Shown piece by piece: positions 28,233 to 46,826 of a stretch of DNA of 64,000 nucleotides. The notes under the pieces were generated by a model, which made no database searches, was not told the origin of the DNA, and worked only from the letters and a program-made list of their open reading frames with translations. The translations under genes were made by a program, and so were the position numbers. This DNA comes from Mycobacterium branderi (lineage in GTDB: Bacteria; Actinomycetota; Actinomycetes; Mycobacteriales; Mycobacteriaceae): contig NZ_AP022607.1 of NCBI RefSeq assembly GCF_010728725.1, forward strand, positions 682,001 to 746,000, written 5' to 3'. Numbering within the stretch: the first letter of the stretch is position 1; the number at the start of each line of letters is the position of its first letter.

Positions 28233-28515
28233 CGATTCACCTCGTCGGAATGATTTCGCTGACGCACTGCCACGGGCATCTCCGCTGCAGACCGCCGTCC
28301 AACATGCAGGCAACTATACGTTATGTCTACTCTATATACATTGCGTTCACTATCACGGAACAGCGCGCGCGCCCCAAGACAACTCGCTGATATCGCTACC
28401 CGCGGGGCCGCGCGAGAGACTGGATTCGTAGCGTGGTTTACAGTAAAGTGGTGTGCTAAATCCGCACTGTTGCGTGCGCTATGTATAGAGGTGTGTGAAG
28501 GGAAGCGCCGAGATC
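28233..28515. promoter_or_regulatory. Divergent promoter region, LLM oxidoreductase / IclR
   Basis: A 283-bp gap with an AT-rich block at about 28312-28342 (GTCTACTCTATATACATT), resembling in part the blocks at 857 and 9558. It probably holds both promoters and an operator for the IclR protein; the resemblance is weak and the exact sites are not resolved. Confidence 0.3.
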
Positions 28516-29181
28516 ATGAACGGTTCGCAGACGCTGGCCAGGGGTATCAATACGCTGCAGTTGGTGGCAGATGCCCCGACCGGGCTGACGGTGCAGCAGG
28601 TTGCCGACGGCGTGGGGGTGCATCGCACGATCGTCTACCGGCTGCTCGGCACGCTGGCGCAGTTTCGGTTGATTACTAAGGGCGACGATGGCCGGTACCG
28701 CCCGGCGGCGGGACTGGCGGTGTTGGGTGCGTCGTTCGACGGCAACATGCGCCAACTGTGCGTGCCCACCCTGCGGGGCCTGGCCGACGATCTGGGCACC
28801 ACGGTGTCGCTGCTGGTGGCCGAGGGCGACCAGCAGGTGGCGCTCGCGGTGATCGTGCCCACCCAGGTCGCCTACCAGCTGGCATTCCACGAGGGCAGCC
28901 GCTACCCGCTGCACCGCGGCGCGGCCGGCATCGCGCTGCTGGCGAGCATGCCGCCGCGGCCCGGGGAACGCGACCTGGTGTCGCGGGCCCGCGAGCAGGG
29001 CTGGGTCATCACCCACGGCGAGATCGAGCCGAACACCTACGGTTTGGCCGTGCCGGTTCATCGCCAACCGCCGTCGCCGCCAACGTGTATCAACCTGATC
29101 TCGCACCGCCAGGACGTCGTGCTGCGCGGCAAGGACGCAGTGATCAAGGCCGCCAAGGAATTGTCGGCAATTCTCAGCTGA
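28516..29181 (+). CDS. IclR-family transcriptional regulator
   Basis: A 221-aa protein, slightly short for IclR (about 250 aa). The N-terminal winged helix is seen in GLTVQQVADGVGVHRTIVYRLLGTLAQFRLI. The C-terminal effector domain includes YPLHRGAAGIALLASMPPR and ITHGEIEPNTYGLAVPVH. It starts at ATG 28516; a GTG at 28495 would add seven residues. It is divergent from the LLM oxidoreductase, and the downstream KstD-like gene lies 353 nt away on the same strand. It probably senses an aromatic or cyclic acid, as family members often do. Confidence 0.85.
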   Translation: MNGSQTLARGINTLQLVADAPTGLTVQQVADGVGVHRTIVYRLLGTLAQFRLITKGDDGRYRPAAGLAVLGASFDGNMRQLCVPTLRGLADDLGTTVSLLVAEGDQQVALAVIVPTQVAYQLAFHEGSRYPLHRGAAGIALLASMPPRPGERDLVSRAREQGWVITHGEIEPNTYGLAVPVHRQPPSPPTCINLISHRQDVVLRGKDAVIKAAKELSAILS

Positions 29182-29197
29182 AAGTCATCTCAGGTGA

Positions 29198-29365
29198 TTA
29201 ACGGCCAAGCGGCGAGTAGGCAAGGAGTGGAAACGCTAGGTGTTCGGTGTACCGCGGGTTGATTTGCAGGCTGTGGTGCCCTCGGCCGAGAAGCTTGTCG
29301 TACAGGTGTCGTTGAGCTTGGCGGTTCCAGTCTCCAGCGGCGCGGCGGGCATCGAAGTGGCGGCG
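29198..29365 (-). pseudogene. IS110-family transposase C-terminal remnant
   Basis: On the minus strand the translation contains HFDARRAAGDWN followed by AQRHLYDKLLGRGHHSLQ and YTEHLAFP, which matches the usual ending of IS110/IS116/IS902-type transposases (helical C-terminus, LxxxxxxxYxExxAFP). Only about 55 residues remain and no N-terminal DEDD domain is nearby. The rest of the 29182-29534 gap shows no other gene. The remnant suggests past insertion or rearrangement here. Confidence 0.55.
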
Positions 29366-29534
29366 GGTTCCTGGGGAGTGTCGCGGGGCGGCCAATGCCC
29401 ACGTTGGATCGGTTCTTTCACAAGTCGTCGAACGAAGCACTTGCCGGCCATCACCCGGCGGCAGATTCCGTACGGAACAGACCCTCGGACACTATGACCG
29501 ACATCCCATCCCTACTAAGCGATTAGGACTCTCG

Positions 29535-31133
29535 ATGCCCTTGTGGGACCACGAAGTCGATGTCGTCGTGCTCGGCAGCGGCGGCGCCGGTCTCACGGCC
29601 GCCCTGACCGCCGCCGCCAACGGCGCTTCGGTGGCGGTGTACGAGAAGGCGCCGACGGTCGGCGGCACCACCGCGGTGTCAGGCGGCGTGGTGTGGATCC
29701 CGGCCCATAACCGTTGTCCAGATGGCGAATTGACGGTTGACGACGCGTTGAGCTACCTGCGGGCACAGTCTTTCGGGTCGTTGGACGAGCCGCTGGTCGA
29801 GACGTTCGTGCGAACCGGCCCGGCGATGCTCGACTTCGTCGAGGCGCACAGCGGCCTGCGCTTCGAAATCGCGATCGGTTTCCCCGACTACAAACCGGAG
29901 CTGCCGGGCGGGCAGCCTTCCGGTGGAAGGTCATTCAGCGCCGCACCCTACGATCTGGCGCAGTTGGGCGAGTGGCGTGATCGGATCACGTCGTTTCCCG
30001 CGGACTGGTCCAACGTCGGGTTCGACGCCGAGACCCGTGCGCGGCTGCACGCGGACGTCGACGAGGGCGCCGACTTGTGCGTTGCGGGCACCGCGCTGAT
30101 CGCCGGGCTGCTCAAGGGATTGCTGGACTTGGGCGTGACGCCCTGCACCGATGCGCGCGCCGAGGAACTTCTCGTCGACGACGGACGGGTGGTTGGTGTC
30201 CGGATGACCGGGTCGACCCTTCGAGCGCGTCGCGGTGTCATCCTGGGTACCGGCGGCTTCGAGTGGAACCCTGTGTGGGTCAAGGCGTTTCTGCGCGGGC
30301 CGATGCACGGTGCGGTCTCGCCGCCGAGCAACACCGGCGACGGTCTGCGGATGGCGATGGCCCACGGCGCCGAGCTGGCCAACATGGGCGAAGCCTGGTG
30401 GGTGCCGATCGTGCAGATCCCCGGCGACACCATTGACGGGCATCAGCGCAGCCGCAGCGTGCGGCTGGAACGCACCCGTCCGCGCAGCATCATCGTCAAC
30501 CGGGCCGGCCGCCGGTTCGTCAACGAAGCCTGCGACTACAACTCGATGGCCGGCGCCTTCCACTACCTCGATCCTCGCGACGGCTACGTCAACGACCCCG
30601 CGTGGATCGTTTTCGACTCGTTGCATCTGAAACGCTACGGCTTCCTGGGCGTCGCACCCGGAGAGCCGGTTCCGGACTGGTTCAATGCCTCCGCCGATTT
30701 TGCCGAGCTGGGCACCAAGACCGGCATCGACGCCGACGGGCTGGCCCGCACCGTCGAACACTGGAACCGCAACGTCGGGGACGGATCCGATCCCGAATTC
30801 GGCCGCGGCTCAAGCGCATACGACGGCTACTGGGGCGACGAGCGCGCCACCACGCTGGCCGGAAAGACGCTGGGACCGATCGACACAGCCCCCTACTATG
30901 CGGTGCCGGTGTCGGTGGGCGCGATGGGCACCAAGGGCGGGCCGCGCACCGACCGCGACGGGCGGGTGCAGCACGTCAACGGGGCACCGATACCGGGTCT
31001 GTTCGCCGCCGGCAATGCGATGGCCGGAGTAACCGGGCGCGCCTACGGCGGTGCCGGTGGAACCATCGGCCCGGCAATGGTTTTCGGCTTCCGCGCCGGA
31101 CACTATGCGGCGACCGGCCAGTCGCTGGACTAA
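29535..31133 (+). CDS. FAD-dependent 3-ketosteroid delta1-dehydrogenase-like oxidoreductase
   Basis: A 532-aa flavoprotein of the fumarate reductase/KstD family. The N-terminal dinucleotide fold is VVVLGSGGAGLTAALTAAANG, with GGTTAVSGGVVWIPAHN as the second FAD motif. The C-terminus has GLFAAGNAMAGVTGRAYGGAGGTIGPAMVFGF, matching the Tyr/Gly substrate-hydrogen motif of KstD. It would introduce a double bond in a 3-keto ring of a steroid or similar polycyclic substrate. Clear relatives act on different steroids, so specificity is open. It is the last gene before the secretion-type operon, which is convergent with it; the 124-bp gap has no strong terminator. Confidence 0.82.
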   Translation: MPLWDHEVDVVVLGSGGAGLTAALTAAANGASVAVYEKAPTVGGTTAVSGGVVWIPAHNRCPDGELTVDDALSYLRAQSFGSLDEPLVETFVRTGPAMLDFVEAHSGLRFEIAIGFPDYKPELPGGQPSGGRSFSAAPYDLAQLGEWRDRITSFPADWSNVGFDAETRARLHADVDEGADLCVAGTALIAGLLKGLLDLGVTPCTDARAEELLVDDGRVVGVRMTGSTLRARRGVILGTGGFEWNPVWVKAFLRGPMHGAVSPPSNTGDGLRMAMAHGAELANMGEAWWVPIVQIPGDTIDGHQRSRSVRLERTRPRSIIVNRAGRRFVNEACDYNSMAGAFHYLDPRDGYVNDPAWIVFDSLHLKRYGFLGVAPGEPVPDWFNASADFAELGTKTGIDADGLARTVEHWNRNVGDGSDPEFGRGSSAYDGYWGDERATTLAGKTLGPIDTAPYYAVPVSVGAMGTKGGPRTDRDGRVQHVNGAPIPGLFAAGNAMAGVTGRAYGGAGGTIGPAMVFGFRAGHYAATGQSLD

Positions 31134-31257
31134 GTTCGCCGCCCCCATCGCTGGGTAGCCTTCCCGCGCACTCGGACAGTGAGGTCGCCAGTCTGCTCAC
31201 GAAGGCGCTTTTGACGACCACGTTTTCACACGCCGCAGACATACCGCCGTGGCCGCC

Positions 31258-33039
31258 TTACTCCGTGGTCGCCGAACCAGCGCCGCCGGTCAATGCCGAG
31301 GCCACGGCGCGGCGCATGTCGTCGGCGTTGACGATCAGTGCCGAGGGGTCGGTGGTCGCCAACTCGGCGAGTTGCTCTGGTGTGAGACGGTGGTGGCGAC
31401 GAGCCCGTTCACGTTTGCAGGCGATGACCACCTTGCGGGCGTAGCGGCCATTTCCGGCCTCATCCAGAGCGGTACCGGGCCCCAGTGGGCTGTTCCGCAG
31501 CCGGGTCGCCTCGGCATACAGCAGCGGCCAGGCCTCTTCGGCGATCGCGATCTTCTCCTTGGCCGCGATGTGTTGGGCGATCGCCACGATCTCATCGGGG
31601 GTGTAGCTGTTGAAGGTCAGCGTGAAATGGAACCGCGACGCCAGGCCGGGGTTTGCTTTCATGAAGCGGCGCATCTCTTTCGGATAGCCGGCGACGATGA
31701 CCACCAGCTGGTCACGGAAGTCTTCCATGTACTTCAGCAAGGTGTCGATGGCCTGCTTGCCGAACGAGTGGCCCTCGGTTTCGGGCACCAGCCGGTATGC
31801 CTCGTCGATGAACAACACCCCGCCGAGAGCTTCCTCGCACACCTCTTTCATGCGCTGCGCGGTCTGCGACACGTAGCCGACGACAATGTCTTCCTCGGTG
31901 ACCTCCATGACCTCCGGACGCTGAATCTTGCCCAGCCCGAACAGGATTTCGGCGACGATGCGCGCGAAGGTGGTCTTCGCGGTGCCGGGGGGTCCTTCGA
32001 GCACGATGTGGTTTTCATTGGTCGTCGACGTTTCCTGGCCCTGGGAAGCCAGCAGTTGATCGATTTGAATTTCGGTGCGCCACACCGCGATCTGCTCTTT
32101 AGGCCCATCGAGGCCGATCAACTCGTCCAGCCGGGCCTGGGCCTGGGCAAGTACTTCTTGCTGCTCGGTTGCCAGCGCCGCCGCGGCGCGCTGTTCTCTG
32201 CTGGTTTCGGTTGCAGGATCCCATTTGTCGGTCCGGGTGGCGATCGTTTCAGCGTCGGTGACGATCAGCCGGTAATGAGGGTTGTCCAATGCCTGGCGCG
32301 CAGCCTCCAGCGGTTGGCCATCCACTGTGGCGGCGTGAAACGCGGCGCGGGCGGCGTCCTCGTCGCCGAGTTCGCGCAGGCACCATCCGCGGGTGAGGGC
32401 GACGTCGGCGGCCACGTACGGGTTGTTGGTGGAGATGCGCTCGGTGAGCTGCAGCGCCGCTTGTGCCTGGCCGAGGCTGGCAGCGGCCGCCGCCGACAAC
32501 GCCGCCACCGCAGCGGTCACCTCGTCGAGGACGTAGGTGGCGTTCGCCGGTGGTGAGACGGCGGTGACTGCGCGGACGTCGGGCCAGCGGCGGGTCTGAT
32601 GGAAGAGGGCTGCCTTCATGAACTGCTGCCATTGGGCGGCCTGGGTGTCGCCGGTGATGACCGGGTCGTCGAGCGTTTCCGCGGCGGCGTCGTAGCTGCC
32701 GGTGGCGATCAGGGCACTCGCGTAGGCAAGGGCGATGGTGGGGCGTGACCACACCGGCATTGCCAGATACAGCGGCGCAGCGACCTGCCCGTGCAGGTCG
32801 CCGTCGGCCAAGCCCAGGCGGCGGGTTTCGCGATAAAGGGCGCGGGAATGCTGGTGGGCGCCGGCCAGCGTGTCCAGGTTGTGGTCTCCACAGGCGATGC
32901 GCCCCAGCCAGGCATCCGACATGGCGGGGTTGTCATTGGTGATCTGGGTGAAGGCGGCCAGCGCCCTGGCGGTATCGCCCATCTTGTAGCTGTTCATCGC
33001 GGCATCGAATGCGCGCCGCTGTTCGGTCGGCGAGGTCAT
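31258..33039 (-). CDS. eccA: EccA-type AAA+ ATPase (CbxX/CfxQ family)
   Basis: A 593-aa protein with EccA architecture: an N-terminal TPR-like helical domain (about 1-275) followed by an AAA+ domain (about 300-590). Walker A GPPGTAKTT is at 349-357, Walker B GVLFIDEA at 407-414, and the sensor/arginine region contains KEMRRFMKANPGLASRFHF. EccA proteins are cytosolic ATPases that act on ESX substrates in type VII secretion. Here it is the last gene of an operon of type IV-like envelope components, 21 nt after the polytopic membrane protein, and no ESX genes lie nearby. Length and motifs are complete. Its partner here is unknown. Confidence 0.9.
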   Translation of the reverse strand: MTSPTEQRRAFDAAMNSYKMGDTARALAAFTQITNDNPAMSDAWLGRIACGDHNLDTLAGAHQHSRALYRETRRLGLADGDLHGQVAAPLYLAMPVWSRPTIALAYASALIATGSYDAAAETLDDPVITGDTQAAQWQQFMKAALFHQTRRWPDVRAVTAVSPPANATYVLDEVTAAVAALSAAAAASLGQAQAALQLTERISTNNPYVAADVALTRGWCLRELGDEDAARAAFHAATVDGQPLEAARQALDNPHYRLIVTDAETIATRTDKWDPATETSREQRAAAALATEQQEVLAQAQARLDELIGLDGPKEQIAVWRTEIQIDQLLASQGQETSTTNENHIVLEGPPGTAKTTFARIVAEILFGLGKIQRPEVMEVTEEDIVVGYVSQTAQRMKEVCEEALGGVLFIDEAYRLVPETEGHSFGKQAIDTLLKYMEDFRDQLVVIVAGYPKEMRRFMKANPGLASRFHFTLTFNSYTPDEIVAIAQHIAAKEKIAIAEEAWPLLYAEATRLRNSPLGPGTALDEAGNGRYARKVVIACKRERARRHHRLTPEQLAELATTDPSALIVNADDMRRAVASALTGGAGSATTE

Positions 33040-33060
33040 CGCTGTTCCTGCGCTCCTGGG

Positions 33061-35070
33061 TTATGTCTCGGTGATGGGATTGACGGTAGTCGGTGGCGGC
33101 CCTGGGGGCCCATCGTCCGGCGGCGGTGGCTCGTCTTCGGGTGGTGGTTCGGGCGGCGGTGGGTCCCCGCTGTAGCCGGTCGCGGGGAGCTCGGTGATCG
33201 GCGGCACCGACGGGGTCTGACCGCCGGCGGTGCCGGCCGGCGCGTCGGCATCCACCGCCACGCCGTGATCGTCCACACCAGCCCGCGGTGAGCGGGCCGG
33301 TCCGCCCTGGCGCCGGCCTGCCTGACGACGGTGGGCCGCCGTGCTGGATTTAGGGTGCTCGCCGGGTTGCTCGTGGAGCGGGGGGACCCCGGCCGCCGGC
33401 CCGTGTGGGCCTGGGCGCTCGCCGGCAGTCCCCTGACCCTCGGCGGGTGCTTGCCTGCCCGCCGGCCGGGCGCTCGCCGCGCGGGCGGCCTCGGCGTCGA
33501 GTCTGTCGGCGGCGTCCGGTACCGGATTGAAACCGGGCCGGGGATCCCCCAGCACTTCACGGGGCTTATCCGCCGCCTGGTCGATCTGCTCCCACGGGGT
33601 CAAACCGGTGTGACGCGACCGCCGGGTCAATCCCCTGCCCGCGCTGATGGCCGCAGAGCCGGCCCATCCGGTCGCGGCGTGCATGCCCATGCCGATGGCC
33701 ACGTCGGTGGCCCGGCCGATCACCCCCCGTGTCGCCGGGTGACCGGAAAGGTCGGCTTTGATGTGGTGCAACAGGACAAACGCGGCGATCGACACCCCGC
33801 CCATCATCAGCACATGCGGAAACGGGTTGGCTCCGCCCAGTTCGGCGGGCAGCGGCTGCGACACGATCCGTTCCACCGCCAGCCCGATCACGCTGACATA
33901 GACGATGTAGACCGTTACCTCGATGCCGTGCCGGAAGAACTGCCAGACCACAGTCATCGCGCGACGCTGAGGAGCGCCGGGAATGCCGCCAAGCCACAAC
34001 GTGGGCAGCAGGATCGCCGTCGTCCAGATCGCTTTGACCGACACCTTCAGCACCGCCCAGCCCGACATCACCATGAACAAAGCCAGTAGCAGCGCTGCGG
34101 TCACGAACACCGCGCCGATCCACACGTTGGTGCCGTCCAGGTGTTCGGCATAGCTCACCGCCGCCCGATCGCCGCAAGTTGCCATGGCCCGGATCGGGCC
34201 GTCTGGTGCACCTTGACGCACAGAGCCCGACCACGCCGCCGCGCAACCGCCGACCCGGTCGACGACGTGACCAAAGTTCCATAGCTGCAACGGTTCTCGG
34301 ACGGTGTGGGTGATCAGGCTCGCCGTCAGCGTGTCGACCTGGCCCGTGAAGCCGGCACCGGTGAGCGCACCCCCCGGCCTGGCGGCCTCAGCAACGGAAA
34401 ACCCGATACGACGGCCGAACGCCAATAGCCCGTTGGGCCCGTACATTTCGCCGGCGGGATCGGCGAAGACCGCGACCGACAACGCCGGCATCGTCAACGC
34501 GACGCCGATCATCGTCCAGCCGCGACCGGCCTCGCCGCGCCTGATCGTCATCACACCGGCGAACACGCCGACCGGGATCGTCACCAGCAGCAGGCCCAGT
34601 TGGGTGGTGACCTGGATGACCGCCGCGGTGACGGCCCGGGCTATCTCACCGATCACGGTCAGCCAGTAGGTGCTGACGGTGATCTTCATCAGCCACAGTG
34701 CCAACGCGATGATGCCGATGAAAGCTCCGGCCTCGCCGGTCATGATGCTGGCCGTGGTGACGTAGCCGGCCGTCACGGTGGCGGCGTGCAGGCTCCACTG
34801 GGCCCAGCTGGCCGGATTCCAGTCCAGGTGCGGGCCCGCTTGGGTGATCTGTTCTGGTATCGAGGCGATCGCCAGGTAGTAGTCGCCGATCGGCACCCCG
34901 TAGCCGTCTTTGAGGCCAGTCCAGTTGAGCATGCCCGCGTTGGTGGAGGCGCTGGCCCGCGGCGCCGTAGCCACCGTCACCATGAACAGCCCCTGCAGCG
35001 TGGCCAGCACGAGTGCCGGGCGGCCCAGCCCCGGGTGGGCCAGATACCAGTAGTGCAGGCGGGCAGTCAT
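33061..35070 (-). CDS. Large polytopic membrane protein, VirB6/TrbL-like position
   Basis: A 669-aa membrane protein. Residues 1-40 look like a signal-anchor (ALVLATLQGLFMVTVATAPRA). Hydrophobic segments follow at about 110-135, 145-175, 185-205, 315-340, 350-370, 385-405 and 420-440, with a long loop (about 205-315) likely outside. Residues about 490-669 are a Pro/Gly/Arg-rich, low-complexity cytoplasmic tail. It overlaps the VirB4-like gene by ATGA. Size, topology and place next to the ATPase fit a VirB6/TrbL-like channel subunit of actinobacterial conjugation systems, but there is no diagnostic motif. Confidence 0.65.
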   Translation of the reverse strand: MTARLHYWYLAHPGLGRPALVLATLQGLFMVTVATAPRASASTNAGMLNWTGLKDGYGVPIGDYYLAIASIPEQITQAGPHLDWNPASWAQWSLHAATVTAGYVTTASIMTGEAGAFIGIIALALWLMKITVSTYWLTVIGEIARAVTAAVIQVTTQLGLLLVTIPVGVFAGVMTIRRGEAGRGWTMIGVALTMPALSVAVFADPAGEMYGPNGLLAFGRRIGFSVAEAARPGGALTGAGFTGQVDTLTASLITHTVREPLQLWNFGHVVDRVGGCAAAWSGSVRQGAPDGPIRAMATCGDRAAVSYAEHLDGTNVWIGAVFVTAALLLALFMVMSGWAVLKVSVKAIWTTAILLPTLWLGGIPGAPQRRAMTVVWQFFRHGIEVTVYIVYVSVIGLAVERIVSQPLPAELGGANPFPHVLMMGGVSIAAFVLLHHIKADLSGHPATRGVIGRATDVAIGMGMHAATGWAGSAAISAGRGLTRRSRHTGLTPWEQIDQAADKPREVLGDPRPGFNPVPDAADRLDAEAARAASARPAGRQAPAEGQGTAGERPGPHGPAAGVPPLHEQPGEHPKSSTAAHRRQAGRRQGGPARSPRAGVDDHGVAVDADAPAGTAGGQTPSVPPITELPATGYSGDPPPPEPPPEDEPPPPDDGPPGPPPTTVNPITET

Positions 35071-37652
35071 GCACCGGCCCGCCTGCGTTGCATCACCCGC
35101 TGCGGATTGGTGTCGAACCGGGCGGCCAGTTGTGCAGTGGGGGCCTCAAACAAACCGACTTTCCCGAAGCCGCCGAACTCATCGAGGTACCACGCTTCGC
35201 CCTCGCGTCCCGCGATGACCTTCCCGTAACGGGTGTCGATCGCGTCGTCGCCGTGGTCCACCAGCTGCACCGGGCTGGTGTTCTCCACATAGTTTTTCAG
35301 CAACTCGGGATGACGTTGCAGATCGCGGTCACACCATTCGAGGGTGGCCTTGGCGATGGCAACCTTGTTGAAGCCCAGGCACAGCCGTTGATCGATGAAC
35401 TCGTCTTCGAGCACCGCGAAGTCTTTGATCGGATGCTGGCTGATCCCGACAAACCCGGTCCACGCCTTGCGGCCTTGGCGGATGACCTTATTGGCGCATT
35501 TTTGACCGCCGGGCGAGTTGGTCCAGGCCGCGCACTCCTCCACTTCCAAGATGTCGGGACGCTCGGGGCGGGAAAAGAACAGCGACTGCGCCAAATCAGC
35601 GCCCAGCCCGTAGAGCGCCTGAGCTGCCCGCTGACCCGGTGTGGTGAGCTCATGCAGGTGCGCCGCATACTCTTCGCCGACCGCGGGTAGCTCCAACCCG
35701 GCGAAATTCCAGATGACACACTGTGTTTCAGCCAGGTCCGGGACAGGTAGGGTTTCGTCGAACAGGGCACGCAGGACCCGCTCGGTGCGCAAACCCTCCA
35801 AGCCCACCAGCAGGTCGTCATCGGCGCTGTCGCGCCCCACTTTGAGCTCACGCAGAAAGCGGATCAGCTGGTTGGTGCTGCCGATCCCATTGGCCTCCCG
35901 GGTCTCCGGTGCCAGATGGGCGCGCAGCCGTGCCGCCTGGCGGCTCAGCGCGGAAAACCCCAACTGCGGCAGCAAATGATCGATCGTGCGTTCCGCAGCG
36001 TCGTTGTAAGGAAATATCCGCAGCCCGTCGAGGCTGAACCCGGGCCGTGACAAATCGATCACTATTTTGTCGTCGAAGTCCGCCAGCGCACATTCGTGCT
36101 CTCGTGCATCGGTGGGATCGAAGATATGCAGGCCCGCCCCCAACATCAGCCATGACCAATTGAGGTTTTTGCTGACGTGCGATTTGCCACGGCCCGGCGA
36201 ACCACAGATCACCAAATTCGCGGGATTATCCCGGGCGGGCGCATCCAACAAATCGAGCAAAACCACATCACGCAGCCCCGGACTGGTCAGATTCATGCCC
36301 AGCGGCACCCCGGTATTGTTGCCGAGCTTGTTCGCCAGCAGCGGCACATACTTGGCGAAGCGCTCGCTGGTGGTTGGGTTGCGGAACTCCCCGAGCTTGG
36401 CCGACTTCTCGGTGCCCGGGTTGAACGCGCGCCACAGGCTTGGCTGGCTGCCCCGCCAGCGGCTCGATCCGATGTTTTGCCGACGGTAGGCACGCAACAC
36501 CCCGGCCGCCGCGTGGTTGACGCTGTCGGGATCGGCGCCGGCCGCGGCGATCACGATGGAGGGGTTCACGCCGCGTTCGGCGGCGCCGCGTTTGAGTTCG
36601 GAGGCCAGCTCTTTGCCGGAGGCCAGCTTGCGCACCAGCTCGTCGTCGCTGAGCGCGTGACGTCCGCGCTGGCGGTACTGGTCGCGAATGTTCTTGACGA
36701 CATTCTGGGCCGTCGATGCCGCCGACTCGGCGCCCTCGAAGGTGAAGTTGACCGTCCAGTCCAGCGTGATGTCCGGGCGGGTCAGATCGTCGAGCACCTT
36801 GAAGATCGTGGCGCGCGGCCAGCTGATCCCGGTGTCGGGAAAACTCTCCAGCGGCAGCAGCACCTGATAGGAGTCGGCGACGTCGTCGGCGGGCTCGCGG
36901 TATGCCCGCAGGAACACCTCGGTGTCGGTGCGGGCGGCACGCCAGCGCCGCCGGCGCAACCGGGCCGCTGACGGGTCGAAATACACCGGGCTAAACGCCG
37001 AGGCGGGCAGGCTGGCATCCGGATCGTGCGGCGCCGACGGCAGCGGGTGTGGCCACACCCCGCGGCTGGCGGTGTAGTTCCAGTGCCACCAAATCTGTTC
37101 AGCGCTGGCTGGTTTGGGAAAGAACACGCCCGGCAGCGCAGCGGTCATCTGGGCGGCCAGCTCGCGGTAATACGACAGCGATGATGCGCTGTCCTTGTCG
37201 CGGCCGATCGCCAGCTCGAACCAGTGTCGCCAGATGCTGGTCGCGTTTTGGCCGGCCGGCCCGTAATCCAACGGCAGGCTCAGCCAATAGATTCGCCGGC
37301 GCGGCCGATGGCCGGTGATGGTTGGTTCCCAGTGCCAGCAGTGCTGCACCCAGCGGCGGGCGGCCTCGGGGATCGTCTCGGGTCCGGTTGGCGCATCGGC
37401 GCGCAGGTCCGGATGGGTGACCAGCATCTTGCGGGCTACCTGGCGGGTAGGCACCGGCACGGTCAGCCCGCTGATCGAGCAGCCCGACGGCAGCGTGCGC
37501 GACAGCTCAGCGTGCTCGGCGGCCACCATGTTTTGCCATTCCTCGCTGAGGAAAATGAACGGCAGCCCCGAGAGCAGATAATCGGCATACACCCCGGTAC
37601 TGGTCAGGCGAAGGTTGCCGACGACGCGCAGCGGAGCCAGTGACGACATCAC
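35067..37652 (-). CDS. VirB4-like secretion ATPase
   Basis: An 861-aa protein. The N-terminal 450 residues contain the VirB4-like (TraC/TrbE) non-catalytic region. The ATPase domain has Walker A GSPGRGKSH at 484-492 and Walker B DILEVEEC at 700-707, with the acidic pair expected for VirB4, and an aromatic GFVGISQHPIKDF motif near 737-749. It would energise assembly or substrate movement at the inner membrane. It starts 9 nt after the small two-TM gene (37662), the same order as the VirB3/PrgI-VirB4 pair in conjugative elements. Not a coupling protein: no N-terminal TM pair is seen. Confidence 0.82.
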   Translation of the reverse strand: MMSSLAPLRVVGNLRLTSTGVYADYLLSGLPFIFLSEEWQNMVAAEHAELSRTLPSGCSISGLTVPVPTRQVARKMLVTHPDLRADAPTGPETIPEAARRWVQHCWHWEPTITGHRPRRRIYWLSLPLDYGPAGQNATSIWRHWFELAIGRDKDSASSLSYYRELAAQMTAALPGVFFPKPASAEQIWWHWNYTASRGVWPHPLPSAPHDPDASLPASAFSPVYFDPSAARLRRRRWRAARTDTEVFLRAYREPADDVADSYQVLLPLESFPDTGISWPRATIFKVLDDLTRPDITLDWTVNFTFEGAESAASTAQNVVKNIRDQYRQRGRHALSDDELVRKLASGKELASELKRGAAERGVNPSIVIAAAGADPDSVNHAAAGVLRAYRRQNIGSSRWRGSQPSLWRAFNPGTEKSAKLGEFRNPTTSERFAKYVPLLANKLGNNTGVPLGMNLTSPGLRDVVLLDLLDAPARDNPANLVICGSPGRGKSHVSKNLNWSWLMLGAGLHIFDPTDAREHECALADFDDKIVIDLSRPGFSLDGLRIFPYNDAAERTIDHLLPQLGFSALSRQAARLRAHLAPETREANGIGSTNQLIRFLRELKVGRDSADDDLLVGLEGLRTERVLRALFDETLPVPDLAETQCVIWNFAGLELPAVGEEYAAHLHELTTPGQRAAQALYGLGADLAQSLFFSRPERPDILEVEECAAWTNSPGGQKCANKVIRQGRKAWTGFVGISQHPIKDFAVLEDEFIDQRLCLGFNKVAIAKATLEWCDRDLQRHPELLKNYVENTSPVQLVDHGDDAIDTRYGKVIAGREGEAWYLDEFGGFGKVGLFEAPTAQLAARFDTNPQRVMQRRRAGA

Positions 37653-37661
37653 AGCGCCCCG

Positions 37662-38009
37662 TTAGCGGCGCAGCCGATGCGAGCAGCGCACCCTGGGGAA
37701 GCTGTTCTGCCACAGCCAGGCCGCGCGGGTGGACAGCGATGGACGCAGCGCGGGCAGTTTGCCCAGCAGCCACACCGCCGCCGCCGTCAGTACGACACCG
37801 ATGGCCAGGGTTCGCAAGGCGTGGCCGCTGGTGATGTTCGCCGTGACCGCCGAGCCGGTGACGACGAAACCGATGACGAAGGCAAGGGCGTCAGGGGCAC
37901 GCCATTTGTCTTTGAACGGCAGCGTGAACCCATCCCCGGAGTCACCCAGATAAATCGGCAGGCTGCGCTGATCGGAGTAGATCTTGGCGGCCGGTGCATC
38001 GTCGAGCAT
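37662..38009 (-). CDS. Small two-TM protein, VirB3/PrgI-like position
   Basis: A 115-aa protein with an N-terminal soluble stretch, two TM segments (about 41-60 and 66-84) and a basic C-terminus. Immediately upstream of the VirB4-like ATPase, with a 9-nt gap, this is the position and topology of PrgI/VirB3-like proteins, which bind VirB4 to the membrane. Sequence identity to that family is not evident by eye. ATG 38009 lies 1 nt after the previous stop. Confidence 0.6.
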   Translation of the reverse strand: MLDDAPAAKIYSDQRSLPIYLGDSGDGFTLPFKDKWRAPDALAFVIGFVVTGSAVTANITSGHALRTLAIGVVLTAAAVWLLGKLPALRPSLSTRAAWLWQNSFPRVRCSHRLRR

Positions 38010-38010
38010 G

Positions 38011-38316
38011 TCAGGGGCCCCAGGGAGTTTCCACGTTGATCGGGTTTTGGATGCCGTGGTGTCTGGCCTCGGCCACGACCGCCGCGGCGATGCCCAACGA
38101 CAACACGATCAGTACCACATGGATGATCGTGCCGATTTGCCCGGTGATCCCCGACCCCGCTCCGTGGCTGGTGTGCGCCTTGACTGAGTGGGCGGTCCCG
38201 ACCACCAGCGCAACCACCGCCAGAAAACATACCGCTGCCAGGCCAAGCCCTTTGCCGGATGAGAACAATCCCGCCACCGCCAAGGTTTGCTCGTCGGCGG
38301 TAATTGTCTCGATCAT
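38011..38316 (-). CDS. Small two-TM protein, VirB2/TrbC-like position
   Basis: A 101-aa protein with two TM segments (about 25-43 and 63-82) around a short Ser/Gly/Ala loop (AHTSHGAGSGITG), giving a hairpin like pilin-type VirB2/TrbC proteins. GGAG lies 7 nt before the ATG. The family cannot be read from residues alone; gene order (membrane hairpin, two-TM protein, VirB4) supports it. No signal-peptidase site is obvious. Confidence 0.55.
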   Translation of the reverse strand: MIETITADEQTLAVAGLFSSGKGLGLAAVCFLAVVALVVGTAHSVKAHTSHGAGSGITGQIGTIIHVVLIVLSLGIAAAVVAEARHHGIQNPINVETPWGP

Positions 38317-38334
38317 CGTTTAACTCCAGACATT

Positions 38335-39252
38335 TCAGCTATGGCCTGCTGATACGGGTTTGGGTTCAGTATCCGGACTGATCTGTGGTGATAAGTCTAT
38401 GGCCGCCACCATCCAGGTTCCGTCACTATTTTCGACCGTCAGCGGATAGGAGAAATCGATCGCGGCGAACTGGCTCGTTTGTGCGGAGACGCGTGCTTGC
38501 AGGTGAATACGCTCTTTTGGCGCCGGATGTTCGGGGATGCGGCGGTCGGTGGCCGCCGAGGTCACCACCGCGGTCTGGTAACCCCCGATCGGGGCCAGCC
38601 CCGATCCCGCGGTCACGTAGCGGTCCAGTCCACTCGTCGACGTCAGATAGGCCGCGACGAACCCTGACACCAGCGAATACAGCGGGCTGTCGCTGCTTAG
38701 CGCATTGGTGTAGGCGGTTTTGATGTCTGCCCCCGGGCCGGGGTCGTTTCTGGCGGTCGGGGTGCCGATGACCCGCAGGCGGCGATGCCACATCGAGATC
38801 GGGACCTGATAGAACGCCAGCGTGGGTGGTGCTGAGGCGTAGGGGCGTTGCATCACCGACACGATCGCCGTATAGATCGACATGTCTCCGACCGTGTCCG
38901 GTGCCGCCACCATATGGCAGTTCGGGGATGTAACCACGTATGGCGGCGTGCTGGGCAGGGCCTTCTCGGCCGGGATCGTGATAAACCGTTGCAGCGCTGC
39001 GCGATCGGCAGCGGTGGCAGTCAGCCAGGTGACGATGAAATCCTTGGCGAACGAACCCACCTGGGCGGCCTGGTTGTCGGTCTGCCGGGCGATCCCGGCG
39101 ATGTCAGGGCGCTGCGGGGTGATGAACACCTGGCACGCGGCGATGGCGCCCAGCAGCGCGCCCACGGCGATCGCGGCCCGCCCGGCCGTGCGGCTGGCGC
39201 TGCGCAGCCGCCGCAGCCGGTCCTCCCAGGTTTTCGAAAGCGCCATAACCAT
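38335..39252 (-). CDS. TcpC/VirB8-like conjugal transfer protein
   Basis: A 305-aa protein with one TM (about 26-45), a basic cytosolic start and an extracytoplasmic domain (about 50-295) that reads as two NTF2-like modules (AQVGSFAKDFIVTWL... and SPLYSLVSGFVAAYL...VENSDGTWMVAAIDL). This is the architecture of TcpC and VirB8 scaffold proteins of Gram-positive and actinobacterial conjugation systems. It lies between the discoidin-like protein and the VirB2-like hairpin. The family call is strong on architecture. Confidence 0.75.
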   Translation of the reverse strand: MVMALSKTWEDRLRRLRSASRTAGRAAIAVGALLGAIAACQVFITPQRPDIAGIARQTDNQAAQVGSFAKDFIVTWLTATAADRAALQRFITIPAEKALPSTPPYVVTSPNCHMVAAPDTVGDMSIYTAIVSVMQRPYASAPPTLAFYQVPISMWHRRLRVIGTPTARNDPGPGADIKTAYTNALSSDSPLYSLVSGFVAAYLTSTSGLDRYVTAGSGLAPIGGYQTAVVTSAATDRRIPEHPAPKERIHLQARVSAQTSQFAAIDFSYPLTVENSDGTWMVAAIDLSPQISPDTEPKPVSAGHS

Positions 39253-39258
39253 TGCTCA

Positions 39259-40332
39259 CTAGGGTTGGTATCCAAGGAATTTCATTGCGCTGACCGCGAA
39301 GGTGTAGTCGACAGGGTCGCCTGGCTGCTCGGCAGGGGCTGCGGGCCCGGTGGTCGTCGTGCTGTCGGCGGGTGCCGGCGCGGCGCCGGCGCCGAGCACA
39401 GAATCGACGAAGCCCGGCTGCTCGGCTGGGACCGGGCTTGAACTGGTCGCCGGGCCGGCGGGCGGGCGCGACGTTTGCCGCACGATCACAGTCACCCGGG
39501 ACGCCAGGATGGGCCGGTTCAGCGGGTTTGTGACAGGGCCGTGGACGTTGCCGGTGTCTTGGACGAAGATGGTGTGGTCATCGTCGTTGAAGTTGTACTG
39601 CAGCCTGCTCACCACTCGATGTGCTAACCATTCGTCCTTTCCCCCAGGGGTTTTCGCAATCCAACCGGGAGTGACCGAGATGGCCGACACTTTGTAGGTT
39701 TTGCCGAAATCGATGTAGAGCACCTGTCCGTCTACCTCGGCTCCGGGTATGCCGCGCACGCACACCCAGGCCGAGTCGGTGGTCGTGTCGGTCAATGCTT
39801 GCGCAGGGGTGGAGCCGGCGGTGGGACAGCCCGGGGCGCTGGCGGTGAACGGGATGGCCTGGTCGCGTGTCGGTGCGGTGGTGCCGGTGGACGCCGGCAC
39901 CGCAGGGGCCGGCGGCGCCACGGATGGCAACGGTGGCGGTGACGCGGGATGGTCGCTGAATGTCACCAGCCCGGCCGTGATGGCCATCGCAGCGGCCGCT
40001 ACCGCGGCGCCGAGTATCCAGGCGGTTTTCTTTGCCCCGGCGTTGACATCGTCGGGCTGGTCGGTGCGCGGCTGTGGCGAGGCCGAGTCTGGGCGGTCGA
40101 GCTCGACCGGTTCATCGCCATCGTCGCGGGGCGCCGAAGCCTCGTCACCTTCTGCTCCAGTGGCGCGGTACTCACCGTCTGCGGCGGTTTCTGCAGCGCG
40201 GTGCGTGAAGTCGGCGTCGTCGCTTTTCGTCACGGCTCGGGTGGGCGGGGCCGCCGAAGGCTCAGGGCCGAACAGCATTTCGGCCGCCCAGTCCCGCTCC
40301 ACATCCACGGGTGTGCTGCTCTCACCACCCAC
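39259..40332 (-). CDS. Single-TM protein with discoidin-like extracytoplasmic domain
   Basis: A 357-aa protein. Residues 1-100 are acidic, low-complexity and cytoplasmic. A TM segment lies at about 103-123, then a Pro-rich linker. A beta-rich domain (about 155-290: AQALTDTTTDSAWVCVRG..., VLYIDFGKTYKVSAISVTPGW, VHGPVTNPLNRPILASRVTVIV) reads like an F5/8 type C/discoidin jelly-roll. The Pro/Ala/Thr tail ends free. GTG 40332 overlaps the preceding gene by 11 nt. Such domains bind carbohydrate or envelope ligands, so this protein may anchor the machine to the cell wall or recognise a recipient; both are inference. Confidence 0.6.
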   Translation of the reverse strand: MGGESSTPVDVERDWAAEMLFGPEPSAAPPTRAVTKSDDADFTHRAAETAADGEYRATGAEGDEASAPRDDGDEPVELDRPDSASPQPRTDQPDDVNAGAKKTAWILGAAVAAAAMAITAGLVTFSDHPASPPPLPSVAPPAPAVPASTGTTAPTRDQAIPFTASAPGCPTAGSTPAQALTDTTTDSAWVCVRGIPGAEVDGQVLYIDFGKTYKVSAISVTPGWIAKTPGGKDEWLAHRVVSRLQYNFNDDDHTIFVQDTGNVHGPVTNPLNRPILASRVTVIVRQTSRPPAGPATSSSPVPAEQPGFVDSVLGAGAAPAPADSTTTTGPAAPAEQPGDPVDYTFAVSAMKFLGYQP

Positions 40333-40660
40333 GGTCGTCGTCCTCGATGACCTCGCCGTCGATCACCGGATGCGCCGGCCGCGGGCCCACCCACACCGGC
40401 ACCATCACCCAGCCCTGCGGCAAAGCGGTTTCCTGACCCCTCGGGCCCCGCGAGGCACCGCTGCGCTGGCCCCGGCCGCTGGCCGGCGCGCGGTACGGAT
40501 TGCGGGGACCGGCGCGGCGATGCAGCGCACGGGCGGCAACGATGATCCCGGCGCCCAGCACCACATAGGGGATGAGCTGGACCAGCAGCTGCACGATCGC
40601 GCCCACGATCAGCAGCACCACGAGGGTGCCCACGGCCAAAAAGCCCATAAGTGTTCTCAT
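40322..40660 (-). CDS. Small membrane protein, first gene of the secretion-like operon
   Basis: A 112-aa protein with one long or two close TM segments (about 5-43) and a basic, then Pro/Gly-rich C-terminal half (about 45-112) ending in an acidic patch. No family recognised. It is first in the minus-strand operon (40660 to 31258) and overlaps the next gene by 11 nt. It has no clear ribosome site, so leaderless translation from ATG 40660 or ATG 40648 is possible. Confidence 0.6.
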   Translation of the reverse strand: MRTLMGFLAVGTLVVLLIVGAIVQLLVQLIPYVVLGAGIIVAARALHRRAGPRNPYRAPASGRGQRSGASRGPRGQETALPQGWVMVPVWVGPRPAHPVIDGEVIEDDDRGW

Positions 40661-40685
40661 GCGGCGAAGCTAGCGCCGGGGTATG

Positions 40686-40718
40686 ACAGATGTCGGCCGC
40701 AGCAATCTGTGTGCCGAC
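40686..40718. promoter_or_regulatory. Interleaved inverted repeats in divergent promoter
   Basis: Between the secretion-like operon (minus) and the DNA-binding-type gene (plus) two inverted repeats interleave: ACAGAT (40686-40691) with ATCTGT (40705-40710), and GTCGGC (40692-40697) with GCCGAC (40713-40718). This is the only structured element in the 89-bp divergent gap and likely binds a regulator, perhaps the adjacent gene product. Confidence 0.4.
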
Positions 40719-40749
40719 TTGGCGCATCGGGGGAGGTAGGGTACGGGAC

Positions 40750-41247
40750 ATGCACGTGCCCGCCGACGGCGTCCCCCGGTTGATGCACTTCGTCGACGCC
40801 CGCCTGGATCAGTTGCGCATCAGCAAGGAGGAAGCGTCGCGGCGCGGCTTCCCCAACCCGAGCACCCTGGCCAAGGTCCGCGACCGTGACACCCAAAACA
40901 CCCCCACGGTGCGCACACTGCTGCGCATCGACCGCACGCTGGGTTGGCAGCCCGGCTCGGCGGCCGTCGTCTTGTTGGGCGGCAACCCGTTGAGCATCAC
41001 CGCGCGCACCACCAAAAGCGTTCGCGCCAAAGAACAAGCCGCCAAACCCATGACCGCCGATGAAGTGGTGACGCGACTGCTCGACCAGCTCCGGGACGAG
41101 ATCAACCGCACCTGCCGCGACCTGAACGAACTGGAGGAACGCATGCGGCGGCTGCGCACCATTCACAGCCGGCTGGTCGGGGAGTTTATGGTCGATGGCC
41201 AGCTGCTGCAGGATTTCGATGACGCGGTCGCCGAGGCGGGCGCCTAG
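40750..41247 (+). CDS. Small helix-turn-helix-like DNA-binding protein
   Basis: A 165-aa protein. Residues about 1-75 look like an Xre-type helix-turn-helix (FVDARLDQLRISKEEASRRGFPNPSTLAKVRDRDTQNTPTVRTLLRIDRTLGW), followed by a helical, coiled-coil-like C-terminus (about 100-165) rich in Arg/Glu. ATG 40750 is preferred over an extension to 40690. It is divergent from the secretion-like operon with interleaved repeats between, so it is the best candidate local regulator. Family similarity beyond the HTH is not visible. Confidence 0.65.
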   Translation: MHVPADGVPRLMHFVDARLDQLRISKEEASRRGFPNPSTLAKVRDRDTQNTPTVRTLLRIDRTLGWQPGSAAVVLLGGNPLSITARTTKSVRAKEQAAKPMTADEVVTRLLDQLRDEINRTCRDLNELEERMRRLRTIHSRLVGEFMVDGQLLQDFDDAVAEAGA

Positions 41248-41261
41248 CGGCGTCGGCGTGC

Positions 41262-41921
41262 TCACCACGGCTGGGACCGTTCGCCGTGTCGGGGCAGCGG
41301 GTGCGGATCGATCAGCCCCGGACCCGTGGTGTCGTCAGGCCCGAGAATCAGCGCGGCATCCTCGGGTGTGACGGCCCGCTTGGGCGGCGTCAGCGGCCAC
41401 CACCGATCCGATCCAGACACCGCCGGCCAGCCTTCGACGATGCCGTAGATGCCGGCCACCACCGGTGCGGCAGCGACCTGAAGGCAGATCCACGGCATCA
41501 TCACGGTTTGGCCCAGCGTGGGAGCCGGGTCGTAGAGCAGCACGATGACCAGGCCCAGCGCCGCACCGGACCACAACAGCATCGCGATCGGGTAGGCCCG
41601 TAGTGTTCCCGGGACCAGTTGGGTGACAACGCGTTTGAGCACAAACCCGGCCAGCCAACCCACTGGGGCCGCCAGCACGGCCACCGAAACTGCCAGCAGC
41701 TCCACCTGCGATGCCGGTGATTTCGTGGTGCGCAGCCACAGCGGTGGAATCAGTGTGTCGTCGTGCGGATCTGGGACGGCAGCGGCCAATTCGCGTTGGC
41801 GGGCACGGACTTTGCGACCCAGCATCTCGGCCCGGCGGCGCTGAATCATCGACCATCCTTGATGGCGGGCGATCCAGGCGCGACGCACTTCGTCGAACTT
41901 GTCGTCGCGGCGATCGGGCAT
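41262..41921 (-). CDS. Hypothetical membrane protein
   Basis: A 219-aa protein with a basic cytosolic N-terminus (about 1-70), three TM segments (about 75-98, 108-130 and 140-165) and a soluble C-terminus. No family recognised. It is convergent with the small DNA-binding protein (14-nt gap) and separated from it by no visible terminator. It lies in the accessory part of the secretion-like island. Confidence 0.55.
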   Translation of the reverse strand: MPDRRDDKFDEVRRAWIARHQGWSMIQRRRAEMLGRKVRARQRELAAAVPDPHDDTLIPPLWLRTTKSPASQVELLAVSVAVLAAPVGWLAGFVLKRVVTQLVPGTLRAYPIAMLLWSGAALGLVIVLLYDPAPTLGQTVMMPWICLQVAAAPVVAGIYGIVEGWPAVSGSDRWWPLTPPKRAVTPEDAALILGPDDTTGPGLIDPHPLPRHGERSQPW

Positions 41922-42027
41922 ACACCGACCCTAAAGCCGCCCCAGCGGGTGCTTGTGCAGTATTTCGGGCCGTCGCATAAACCTCGCGTGGGCGCGGCGC
42001 GGCGGGTCTGCGGAGGGATCGCTCATC

Positions 42028-42378
42028 TCACCGCTGCGGGTTTGCCACTTGAGCGTCCGGACTGATCAGGCGGTGAGCCACGACTCCGGCGCGCAGACTC
42101 AGGGCGATTTCTTCGATGCGGTGCTGCGAAGTGTCCCAGCCGCGGACCTTTTCGGTGCGGACCATCTGGCCCTCGTGTCTGACCACAATCTTCCACCGCA
42201 CACCGCACCACTTGGCCAGGAACCACAGCGGCCACCACACCAATGCAGCCAGCCACAACGCAAGACCCAGTAAGAAACCTTCGACGTCAAGGCCCCCGAG
42301 ATCGGGAGACCCCGGCGACGGCCACCAGCACCGCTGAACCGACCATCCGGCGCCCTGATCATCGCGAAATTCCACCAT
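42028..42378 (-). CDS. Small membrane-anchored hypothetical protein
   Basis: A 116-aa protein with one strong hydrophobic segment (about 33-60, aromatic-rich: LLGLALWLAALVWWPLWFLAKW) and a soluble C-terminus containing ISP. ATG 42378 is 6 nt behind AGGAT; a GTG two codons upstream is an alternative. No family recognised. It follows the membrane protein at 41262 on the same strand after 106 nt. Confidence 0.5.
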   Translation of the reverse strand: MVEFRDDQGAGWSVQRCWWPSPGSPDLGGLDVEGFLLGLALWLAALVWWPLWFLAKWCGVRWKIVVRHEGQMVRTEKVRGWDTSQHRIEEIALSLRAGVVAHRLISPDAQVANPQR

Positions 42379-42676
42379 TCGCACATCCTAGGAATTGATT
42401 GCTCAGCCCGGCCGCAGCGCCGACGTCCCCGGTTCTGCCGCGAGCAGTTCGATCATGGGTCGCCAATACACCTGGCCGGCAACGCCTTCCACTGAGCGAC
42501 TGCAGACTGCCGATCGAAACCGTTGTGATGCAGGCTAAGTAGCGCGGCAGGATCCGCCGTTGGCCGCTTCGATTCGTCGTGGCGGTGTCGGGATTGTAGT
42601 TGGCTGAGCCGAGGTTGCCTCGCAGGTGTTCAGGATGGATAGGCCTTGGGCGACGTGGCAAGCACCAGTAGCCCTC
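42379..42676. other. Intergenic gap without recognised content
   Basis: About 298 bp between two small minus-strand genes. I see no coding pattern, clear inverted repeat or terminator here; the promoter of the gene at 42028 is probably near its right side. Confidence 0.4.
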
Positions 42677-42913
42677 CTAACCACTCAGCGGGTCGACACC
42701 ATCGGGTGCTGCCGGCCAGGGCACCACCTCCACCTGCCGACCAGCACGCACCCCGACAATCAACACCGTCTCACCCGCGCCGATCGGCTGATCACCAAAC
42801 GCGATGTAGGTCTCCCGGCCACCCCGAACCGCCACCACCACCTCCCCCGGCCGAGCGCCGCCACCCACCGCGCTCACCACCCGCGCCACCAACCCCACAA
42901 CCTGATCAGTCAT
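42677..42913 (-). CDS. Small NfeD-like OB-fold protein
   Basis: A 78-aa protein whose residues 20-70 (ARPGEVVVAVRGGRETYIAF, then GAGETVLIVGVRAGRQVEVVPW) match the OB-fold pattern of the NfeD C-terminal domain, without the usual membrane region. A role in membrane-protein complexes is suggested by the family only. ATG 42913 is used. Convincing codon pattern but short, so moderate certainty. Confidence 0.55.
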   Translation of the reverse strand: MTDQVVGLVARVVSAVGGGARPGEVVVAVRGGRETYIAFGDQPIGAGETVLIVGVRAGRQVEVVPWPAAPDGVDPLSG

Positions 42914-43064
42914 CCCTACCCCAAGTGATACCTCGGGCGTTGTCGCGCCGGGTTTTTGAGATCGTAGGCAGGCGCCGCTGCGCCGGGCAAACAGTCACGC
43001 TGGGGGCCCGGGGCCTCAAAAATTAGTGCGGGTGGAGCATTATTTGACCTGCGAGGATGATCGC

Positions 43065-44852: not shown

Positions 44853-44888
44853 TTACCGAGTACGCGCGCTGAGACCGCTCCAGGCATC

Positions 44889-44904
44889 CCTGCGAGCACG
44901 CAGG
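44889..44904 (+). terminator. Weak hairpin between convergent genes
   Basis: CCTGCG (44889-44894), loop AGCA, CGCAGG (44899-44904), between the convergent propeller gene and two-HTH gene. No U-tract follows. Possible bidirectional terminator with low confidence. Confidence 0.3.
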
Positions 44905-44924
44905 ACCGTGGGAAAGTCCAGCCG

Positions 44925-45722: not shown

Positions 45723-45979
45723 CAGTGCGCCACCCTCCGTGGGAACGCCCAATTTGGCAGCGGATTGCCGGTGATGATCACCGAACCAGTGCGCACACCT
45801 CGGCCCGGCACGCCGCTCGGGCTGCCGCCAATTACCCGCCGCGGCTCATCGACAGCCGCAACACCTCGCGAGATTGGTGAGTCGTCGATCCGCACAGTCG
45901 GCCGGGGGCCTTCACCGATGGCCACTACGGTGCGGCCGGAAGGCGGGGCAGGCTCGGCAGTCGACTCGACGTTGGTCAT
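45722..45979 (-). CDS. Small hypothetical protein coupled to the two-HTH regulator
   Basis: An 85-aa, Pro/Gly/Arg-rich, probably disordered protein. ATG 45979 is supported by a GGAG just upstream. Its stop overlaps the regulator start as TGATG. No motif recognised. The coupling suggests a partner or antagonist of the regulator. Confidence 0.5.
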   Translation of the reverse strand: MTNVESTAEPAPPSGRTVVAIGEGPRPTVRIDDSPISRGVAAVDEPRRVIGGSPSGVPGRGVRTGSVIITGNPLPNWAFPRRVAH

Positions 45980-46780: not shown

Positions 46781-46784
46781 GCAT

Positions 46785-46826
46785 CAGCGCCCCGCCGCAG
46801 GTTCGAGGGGTAGCGGCGGGGCGCTG
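46785..46826 (+). terminator. Strong hairpin terminator after WhiB-like gene
   Basis: A perfect 14-bp stem, CAGCGCCCCGCCGC (46785-46798) and GCGGCGGGGCGCTG (46813-46826), with a 14-nt loop, starting 5 nt after the WhiB stop. It lacks a clear U-tract, as many mycobacterial terminators do. Confidence 0.75.

Follow-up and report, generated by a model that had tools for sequence, protein, structure and literature searches.

The window analysed here is the whole 64,000-nucleotide stretch C2:682001–746000 of the two-contig Mycobacterium branderi genome, in which C1 is the chromosome and C2 (NZ_AP022607.1) the second replicon. On its minus strand (31258–40660) lies an eight-gene operon in which genes of a type IV secretion system (T4SS) are followed by eccA, the gene of an ATPase of the ESX (type VII) secretion machines. 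Judged from sequence, the block is very probably the mating-channel module of an ESX-P2-type conjugation system that joins type VII and type IV secretion (T7/T4) on a circular megaplasmid of approximately 845 kb; the locus would be complete but stretched, and EccA would serve as the ATPase of ESX-P2. Direct observations are the gene order, homology, open reading frames (ORFs), copy number and the presence of the other parts on the same replicon. The locus is ordinary in kind, and its dispersal is unusual.

Gene content of the operon

An earlier note on this DNA had described eight same-strand genes with junctions of −11 to +21 nt. The ORF check, in which six were translated, confirmed all eight and their spacings, the junctions in operon order being −11, +6, +18, +1, +9, −4 and +21 nt. 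Third-position GC favours coding in all eight frames. Two of the ORFs, 38335–39252 and 39259–40332, are missing from the automatic gene list and are supported by both third-position GC and tblastn of proteins of the plasmid pJCM12603 (Mycolicibacterium poriferae, NZ_AP022571). Chance ORFs were rejected by homologues, codon-position GC and constraint.

All eight genes lie on the minus strand. The first (40322–40660) encodes a 112-aa small membrane protein with one long hydrophobic stretch, 36% identical to its pJCM12603 counterpart. It is followed by a single-pass membrane protein with a discoidin/CBM32-like domain (39259–40332), for which the Pfam score of 26.3 bits lies just below the cut-off of 28.2 and the predicted fold is in agreement. 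The VirB8-like tcpC (38335–39252; 55% identity to pJCM12603) exceeds the cut-off of Pfam TpcC (39.9 bits, E 5.6e-10, cut-off 27). Two small genes for proteins with two hydrophobic, presumably transmembrane (TM), stretches come next, one of 101 aa (38011–38316; 46% identity to pJCM12603) and one of 115 aa (37662–38009; 71% identity), the latter directly before virB4 and a candidate for the VirB3/TcpE place by position. The virB4-like ATPase (35067–37652; 76% identity to pJCM12603) scores 59.7 bits against Pfam AAA_10 (cut-off 27.5), with a Walker A motif GSPGRGKS and a Walker B acidic pair E-E. This acidic pair is usually D-E; E-E was found in all 25 aligned members, namely the window protein and its relatives. 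The polytopic protein with a Pro-rich tail (33061–35070) may be extended-VirB6-like, as its position and weak fold-model support suggest. The last gene, eccA (31258–33039), encodes an EccA-type AAA+ ATPase of the ESX-P2 clade, assigned by Pfam, motifs and 77% identity to the pJCM12603 EccA.

The earlier reading of these genes as TcpC/VirB8-like, VirB4-like, discoidin-like and intact EccA is thus upheld by Pfam TpcC, AAA_10 and EccA and by the predicted discoidin fold, and with it that of a type IV-like operon carrying an EccA-type ATPase. Its placing of the membrane proteins in T4SS families holds in part: TcpC and VirB4 were matched and VirB6 has weaker fold support, whereas the two small membrane proteins were left unplaced. 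Pfam and further family searches gave no family over the cut-off for the 115-aa protein, and the small membrane proteins of the operon matched no family in Pfam, PHROG or the further searches. Neither VirB4 nor TcpC has a sequence match in PDB.

No sigma-70-type promoter was matched in 30900–43100 by a scan that is weak for mycobacteria. The same interval contains 12 terminator-like sites (6.8 expected), and the three on the operon strand are all inside virB4. The repeats at the block ends are short imperfect pairs only and were taken as chance.

The remaining parts of the machine

Both ends of C2 overlap over 19.4 kb at 99.6% identity, and C2 is therefore a circle of approximately 844.8 kb. 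No tRNA was found in the window or in 19 other C2 stretches. As the earlier note had observed, the window itself lacks the other components: of the window proteins scanned with Pfam, none proved to be a relaxase, a coupling protein or the product of a further ESX gene, and genome-wide searches with EccB, TrwC and TraG-D_C gave no match inside it. These genes lie elsewhere on C2, so the apparent puzzle arose from the window edge.

The ESX-P2 locus is situated at C2:215.1–230.8 kb, with best matches 44–76% identical to pJCM12603. It contains EccC, EccB, EccD, EccE, MycP, EspG, PE, PPE and two small Esx-like genes, and its large genes are full-length ORFs. Of the four EccB genes in the genome, one is on C2. 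Matches to the EspC family (PF10824) at C2:246442–246726 and 257645–257935, 16–27 kb from the ESX-P2 locus, may represent further secreted partners. The virD4 gene (C2:205.7–207.1 kb) encodes a protein of 446 aa, 73% identical to pJCM12603 VirD4, and is the sole TraG-D_C coupling protein in the whole genome (47.5 bits, cut-off 22). The mobF gene (C2:530.6–533.8 kb, match 530982–533798) is 75% identical over 948 of the 949 residues of pP4-4a MobF with no stop, and its product scores 204 bits against TrwC. TrwC has two matches in the genome, the chromosomal one being 33% identical to the plasmid type; this chromosomal MobF-type relaxase (G000:C1:2169013–2171943) lies in a 1950-codon open frame. 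AAA_10, the VirB4-type family, has a single match in the whole genome, the virB4 of the window.

A relaxase, TcpC, VirB4, a type IV coupling protein and a type VII secretion system are given as the criteria for a mycobacterial T7/T4 conjugative plasmid in a survey, the available text of which names relaxase, virB4, virD4, tcpC and type VII genes as needed for conjugation in Mycobacteriaceae (PMC8190616). VirB4, TcpC, a VirD4-type coupling protein, a MobF relaxase and an ESX core are all present on C2. The operon would thus form part of a single T7/T4 system with the ESX-P2 locus, virD4 and mobF, which bears out the suggestion of one machine in the earlier note.

Dispersal of the locus

Along the minus strand of C2, the order is ESX-P2, virD4, a gap of 326.6 kb, the block from a 219-aa membrane protein gene to eccA, a gap of 179.5 kb, and mobF on the opposite strand. 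The compact pJCM12603, pP4-4a, pCBMA213_2 and NZ_CP126903 match C2 in their order of virB4, eccA and opposite-strand mobF, and the distance from virD4 to the 219-aa gene is 0.13 to 2.3 kb in the four relatives measured. The same joint carries inserts elsewhere, of approximately 16 kb on the ICEMyc226 contig and approximately 7.6 kb in strain OAS707. The best reading is that a once compact conjugation locus was stretched by the insertion of cargo with no change of order or relative strand. No transposase or integrase was found among ten proteins tested around virD4 or ten near the window block, a subset of the ORFs there. No published dispersed T7/T4 locus was found in titles or abstract openings.

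Ten genes from both halves have ratios of nonsynonymous to synonymous substitution (dN/dS) of 0.17–0.41 against pJCM12603, which records constraint over the whole divergence from that plasmid and says nothing of function after stretching.

A T7/T4 locus can accordingly span an 845-kb replicon with its order, strand and reading frames kept. A locus spread in this manner would be missed by neighbourhood-based tests for conjugative plasmids. The split also provides a natural test of which genes belong to each half of the machine.

The EccA protein

The window EccA exceeds the cut-offs of both its Pfam domains, the N-terminal T7SS_EccA1_N (PF21545; 205.3 bits, cut-off 27) and AAA (60.4 bits, cut-off 21.2). 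Against the NCBIfam equivalog TIGR03922, its 455 bits fall narrowly below the cut-off of 466.65; hence, it is named an EccA-type ATPase. The pJCM12603 protein that is 77% identical to it carries the eccA annotation. Its AAA+ core is complete, with Walker A GPPGTAKTT, Walker B GVLFIDEA and an arginine finger LASRF, and its N- and C-terminal parts match solved EccA1, EccA3 and EccA5 chains, including the EccA1 structure 9lur. Among the three full-size EccAs in the genome, the window copy is the sole one on C2. The EccAs of chromosomal ESX systems share the N-terminal EccA domain and the AAA+ domain with it, and the two full-size chromosomal copies of this genome are 34% and 38% identical to it. 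According to the available text of a 2024 review, EccA is an AAA+ ATPase of the cytoplasm whose function is unknown and whose gene accompanies every ESX system except ESX-4 (PMC11217815).

In a tree of 27 EccA rows (L039, L043, L087, L095, L104 and L105 left out), the 17 EccAs from T4SS operons and the locus L103 share one side of a branch with a support of 93/92, which falls short of the level that the tree program marks as trustworthy; the program also flags long branches. Ala precedes the Walker A Lys (GTAKT, in one case GSAKT) in 16 of the 17 T4SS-operon EccAs and in L103, while Gly occupies this place in L042 among the T4SS-operon EccAs and in the nine remaining rows. In L103 (G040:C29) and NZ_CP118918.1, the EccA is 51–53% identical to that of the window and its gene lies upstream of virB4, with the VirB4 proteins only 29–33% identical; from this pattern, eccA may have been swapped between plasmid types. 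The chromosomal EccA at G000:C1:4124091–4125716 groups with the EccAs of two pRAW-type loci (97/93), and an eccB lies 26 kb away.

Position of eccA among relatives

A lack of conservation of eccA beside the virB4-like gene had been named as refuting in the earlier note. Conservation was found: among 19 close loci in genomes near the window VirB4, with L119 and L120 near copies, 16 have eccA as the next same-strand gene after the polytopic one. Regarding the three exceptions, L125 ends at a contig end, and L132 and L136 have no eccA after the polytopic gene. L132 lies on the same contig as L112 of genome G033, and the rest of this 11.3-kb contig has no eccA after the virB4–polytopic pair; the eccA of G033 (69–70% identical) is situated directly after eccE in the ESX-P operon. 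L136 (Mycolicibacterium sp. P1-18) has no eccA within approximately 8 kb after the polytopic gene, and in P1-18 the eccA (79% identical) is 0.16 kb from virD4 on the same 215-kb contig. L136 (3173–9331) also has approximately 6 kb between tcpC and the small TM genes.

A wider survey took the best 60 of 246 plasmid records with a VirB4 match by tblastn, minus 12 from Rhodococcus, leaving 48 rows; the EccA and EccB places were drawn from the best 60 rows per search, with the best place per record only. Among the matches listed, eccA shares the strand of virB4 and follows it by 2.06–2.30 kb in 15 of the 48 rows, and is on the opposite strand within 9 kb of virB4 in 24; neither layout was found in nine. 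One of these nine, pJCM18538, is annotated with an AAA ATPase gene that comes immediately behind the polytopic gene and has the same orientation. All 15 same-strand records, again among the matches listed, contain eccB, and 14 of them have a single EccA place. In 40 locus stretches, some of which end at a contig end and of which L086, L087 and L095 are near copies, eccA was located immediately behind the polytopic gene (15), in convergent orientation (4), upstream near virD4 (6) or nowhere in the stretch (15).

The common place of eccA at the end of the T4SS operon is probably old and is not fixed, eccA moving between blocks of one machine. Such movement is easier to reconcile with an ESX-P2 ATPase than with a T4SS part; it makes a strict T4SS role of EccA unlikely but is compatible with a double role.

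Proposed mechanism and alternative readings

Conjugation channels are formed by a relaxase, a coupling protein and VirB4, VirB6 and VirB8 proteins. In the proposed mechanism, the MobF relaxase would nick the plasmid and remain on the strand, and VirD4 would pass the relaxase–strand complex to a channel composed of VirB4, the VirB6-like protein, TcpC and the small membrane proteins. If its domain binds the wall, the discoidin protein could anchor this channel to a wall sugar. Meanwhile, the ESX-P2 machine would secrete the PE/PPE and Esx proteins needed for mating, and EccA, as its cytosolic AAA+ ATPase, would be produced together with the channel, presumably by cotranscription of eccA with the channel genes. 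Cargo would have been inserted at two places, one separating virD4 from the module and the other separating eccA from mobF.

Several points weigh against this reading. The pJCM12603 proteins hyp15154, hyp13422, FtsK-like and hyp26416 are unmatched in stretches covering approximately half of C2, as are the first 200 residues of its ParA-like protein. The dN/dS values span the whole divergence from pJCM12603 (dS 0.74–1.21, partly saturated) and not the time since stretching, so that a recent loss of function is compatible with them. The VirB3 and VirB6 assignments are weak, resting on position and a weak model, and the work of eccA for the ESX side is proposed from knowledge of its family.

Alternatively, though this is unlikely, the block could be the dead or domesticated relic of a conjugative element that is maintained for some other role in the envelope or is no longer maintained. 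The dispersal of the locus speaks for such decay, as do the relative pJCM15296, in which eccB is 114 kb from virB4, virB4 is annotated in two pieces and no relaxase is typed, and NZ_CP020811.1, which matches the first 134 residues of virB4 only. On C2, however, each block retains its large core genes at full length, and dN/dS is below 0.45 in all ten genes tested. The domestication offered in the earlier note is unsupported because the ESX-P2 locus, virD4 and mobF are intact on the same replicon. A locus that is chromosomal or domesticated was rejected because C2 is circular and carries a relaxase. It is very improbable that the block is a new hybrid secretion machine with no link to conjugation: such a machine would account for the relaxase and coupling protein not found among the window proteins scanned, but both are on C2 and close to those of compact plasmids. 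A hybrid machine specific to this genome was likewise rejected, since the layout is found in many relatives.

Conceivably, EccA could be a working part of the T4SS, for instance an additional ATPase that takes the place of VirB11, or serve both machines; this is somewhat less likely still than the relic. The frequent place of eccA at the T4SS operon end, the tree branch uniting the 17 T4SS-operon EccAs with L103 (93/92, not starred, with long branches), GTAKT in the Walker A of 15 of these 17, and the persistence of the eccA–T4SS link after the locus was split all point in this direction, as does the universal lack of VirB11 in Gram-positive T4SSs given in the available text of a review (PMC12857230). 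Against it stand G033, with eccA directly after eccE and a virB4–polytopic pair lacking eccA on the rest of its contig, P1-18, with eccA beside virD4, and the fact that none of the 15 same-strand plasmid records among the matches listed lacks eccB. A related and equally doubtful proposal is that the EccA of this plasmid clade is a shared ATPase acting on both channel assembly and ESX-P2 substrates, with both machines switched on together; if true, this would account for eccA having remained next to the T4SS block while the locus was drawn apart by hundreds of kilobases. Under the preferred reading, EccA as the ESX-P2 ATPase of a T7/T4 plasmid, an apparently orphan EccA is placed with its machine.

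Limits of the block and neighbouring DNA

Judging by its relatives, the block exceeds the eight genes and includes a divergent regulator and a 219-aa TM protein gene. The regulator (40750–41247, plus strand), helix-turn-helix (HTH) type by its relatives, is 69.6% identical to a pJCM12603 protein in the same place and strand relation; it matched a PHROG transcriptional regulator (E 4.9e-9) and no Pfam family. The 219-aa membrane protein gene (41262–41921, minus strand; 66.7% identity to pJCM12603) has virD4 on one side and the T4SS genes on the other in close relatives, and comes after virD4 in pJCM12603. It accompanies the block in many relatives, with its strand reversed in the more distant ones.

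Adjoining the block, window positions 42028–47994 hold a WhiB-type gene and the genes of an unknown 341-aa protein, of a membrane protein of 608 aa that has a PQQ-type relative on pJCM18538, and of an HTH protein whose DNA gives short matches with FHA-domain genes of other plasmids; in the DNA from 42.0 to 49.9 kb, plasmid matches are short only. At the eccA end (27279–31133), a luciferase-like monooxygenase, an IclR-type regulator and a FAD_binding_2 oxidoreductase form catabolic-looking cargo.

Comparison with known systems

The founding paper on pRAW is reportedly Ummels 2014, and the ESX-P classification is said to be that of Dumas 2016. In the pRAW/pMK12478 group (ESX-P1 in one scheme, P5 in another), the same kind of T4SS genes adjoin the ESX-P locus; there, eccA ends the ESX operon and is convergent with the T4SS operon, whereas on C2 eccA ends the T4SS operon. 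This group is described as conjugative in the part of the literature available, and a review figure has VirB4 and VirD4 working with the type VII system in pRAW transfer (PMC12857230).

The best VirB4 identity, 76%, was found in two Mycolicibacterium plasmids. Four plasmids, namely pJCM12603, pP4-4a, pCBMA213_2 and M. abscessus 50594 plasmid 2, carry ESX-P, virD4, the 219-aa gene, the divergent regulator, small TM, discoidin, tcpC, small genes, virB4, polytopic and eccA in this order; a single small gene is added in pP4-4a, the M. abscessus plasmid has an insertion inside, and in some of the four further genes separate virD4 from the 219-aa gene. The pairing of EccA with a T4SS is therefore the usual arrangement of a known plasmid group, not the puzzling hybrid ATPase set of the earlier note, and the window EccA is not isolated from an ESX machine. 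The module has a close copy in L111 (G087:C3, NZ_CP020811.1), whose T4SS block is broken, the virB4 match stopping after residue 134.

EccA is stated to be absent from ESX-P2 in the available text of one paper (PMC4791881). All five loci examined, namely the four plasmids above and the window, have an EccA-type gene as the last of the T4SS operon; of these, pCBMA213_2 and the 50594 plasmid are assigned to P2 from the printed text available and the other three by similarity. The printed absence does not hold for these P2-type plasmids.

The closest systems, pJCM12603 and the M. vanbaalenii plasmid NZ_CP126903, are 76% (VirB4), 77–78% (EccA), 75% (EccB) and 73% (VirD4) identical to C2 and are of ESX-P2 type by similarity; pJCM12603 carries the same block on the same strands, and in both plasmids mobF lies further on, on the opposite strand, as on C2. 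The gene order of C2 is also like that of pCBMA213_2 and ICEMyc226 (Mycolicibacterium sp. CBMA 213 and 226), for which the published text available describes an ESX-2-like/ESX-P2 locus with T4SS genes between eccE and eccA (PMC5452490; PMC7478629), these being virD4, tcpC and virB4, and an insertion of approximately 14 kb in that stretch of ICEMyc226 (PMC7478629). From virD4 to the 219-aa gene, the distance is 0.5 kb in pJCM12603 and, as measured here, approximately 16 kb in ICEMyc226, compared with 326.6 kb on C2.

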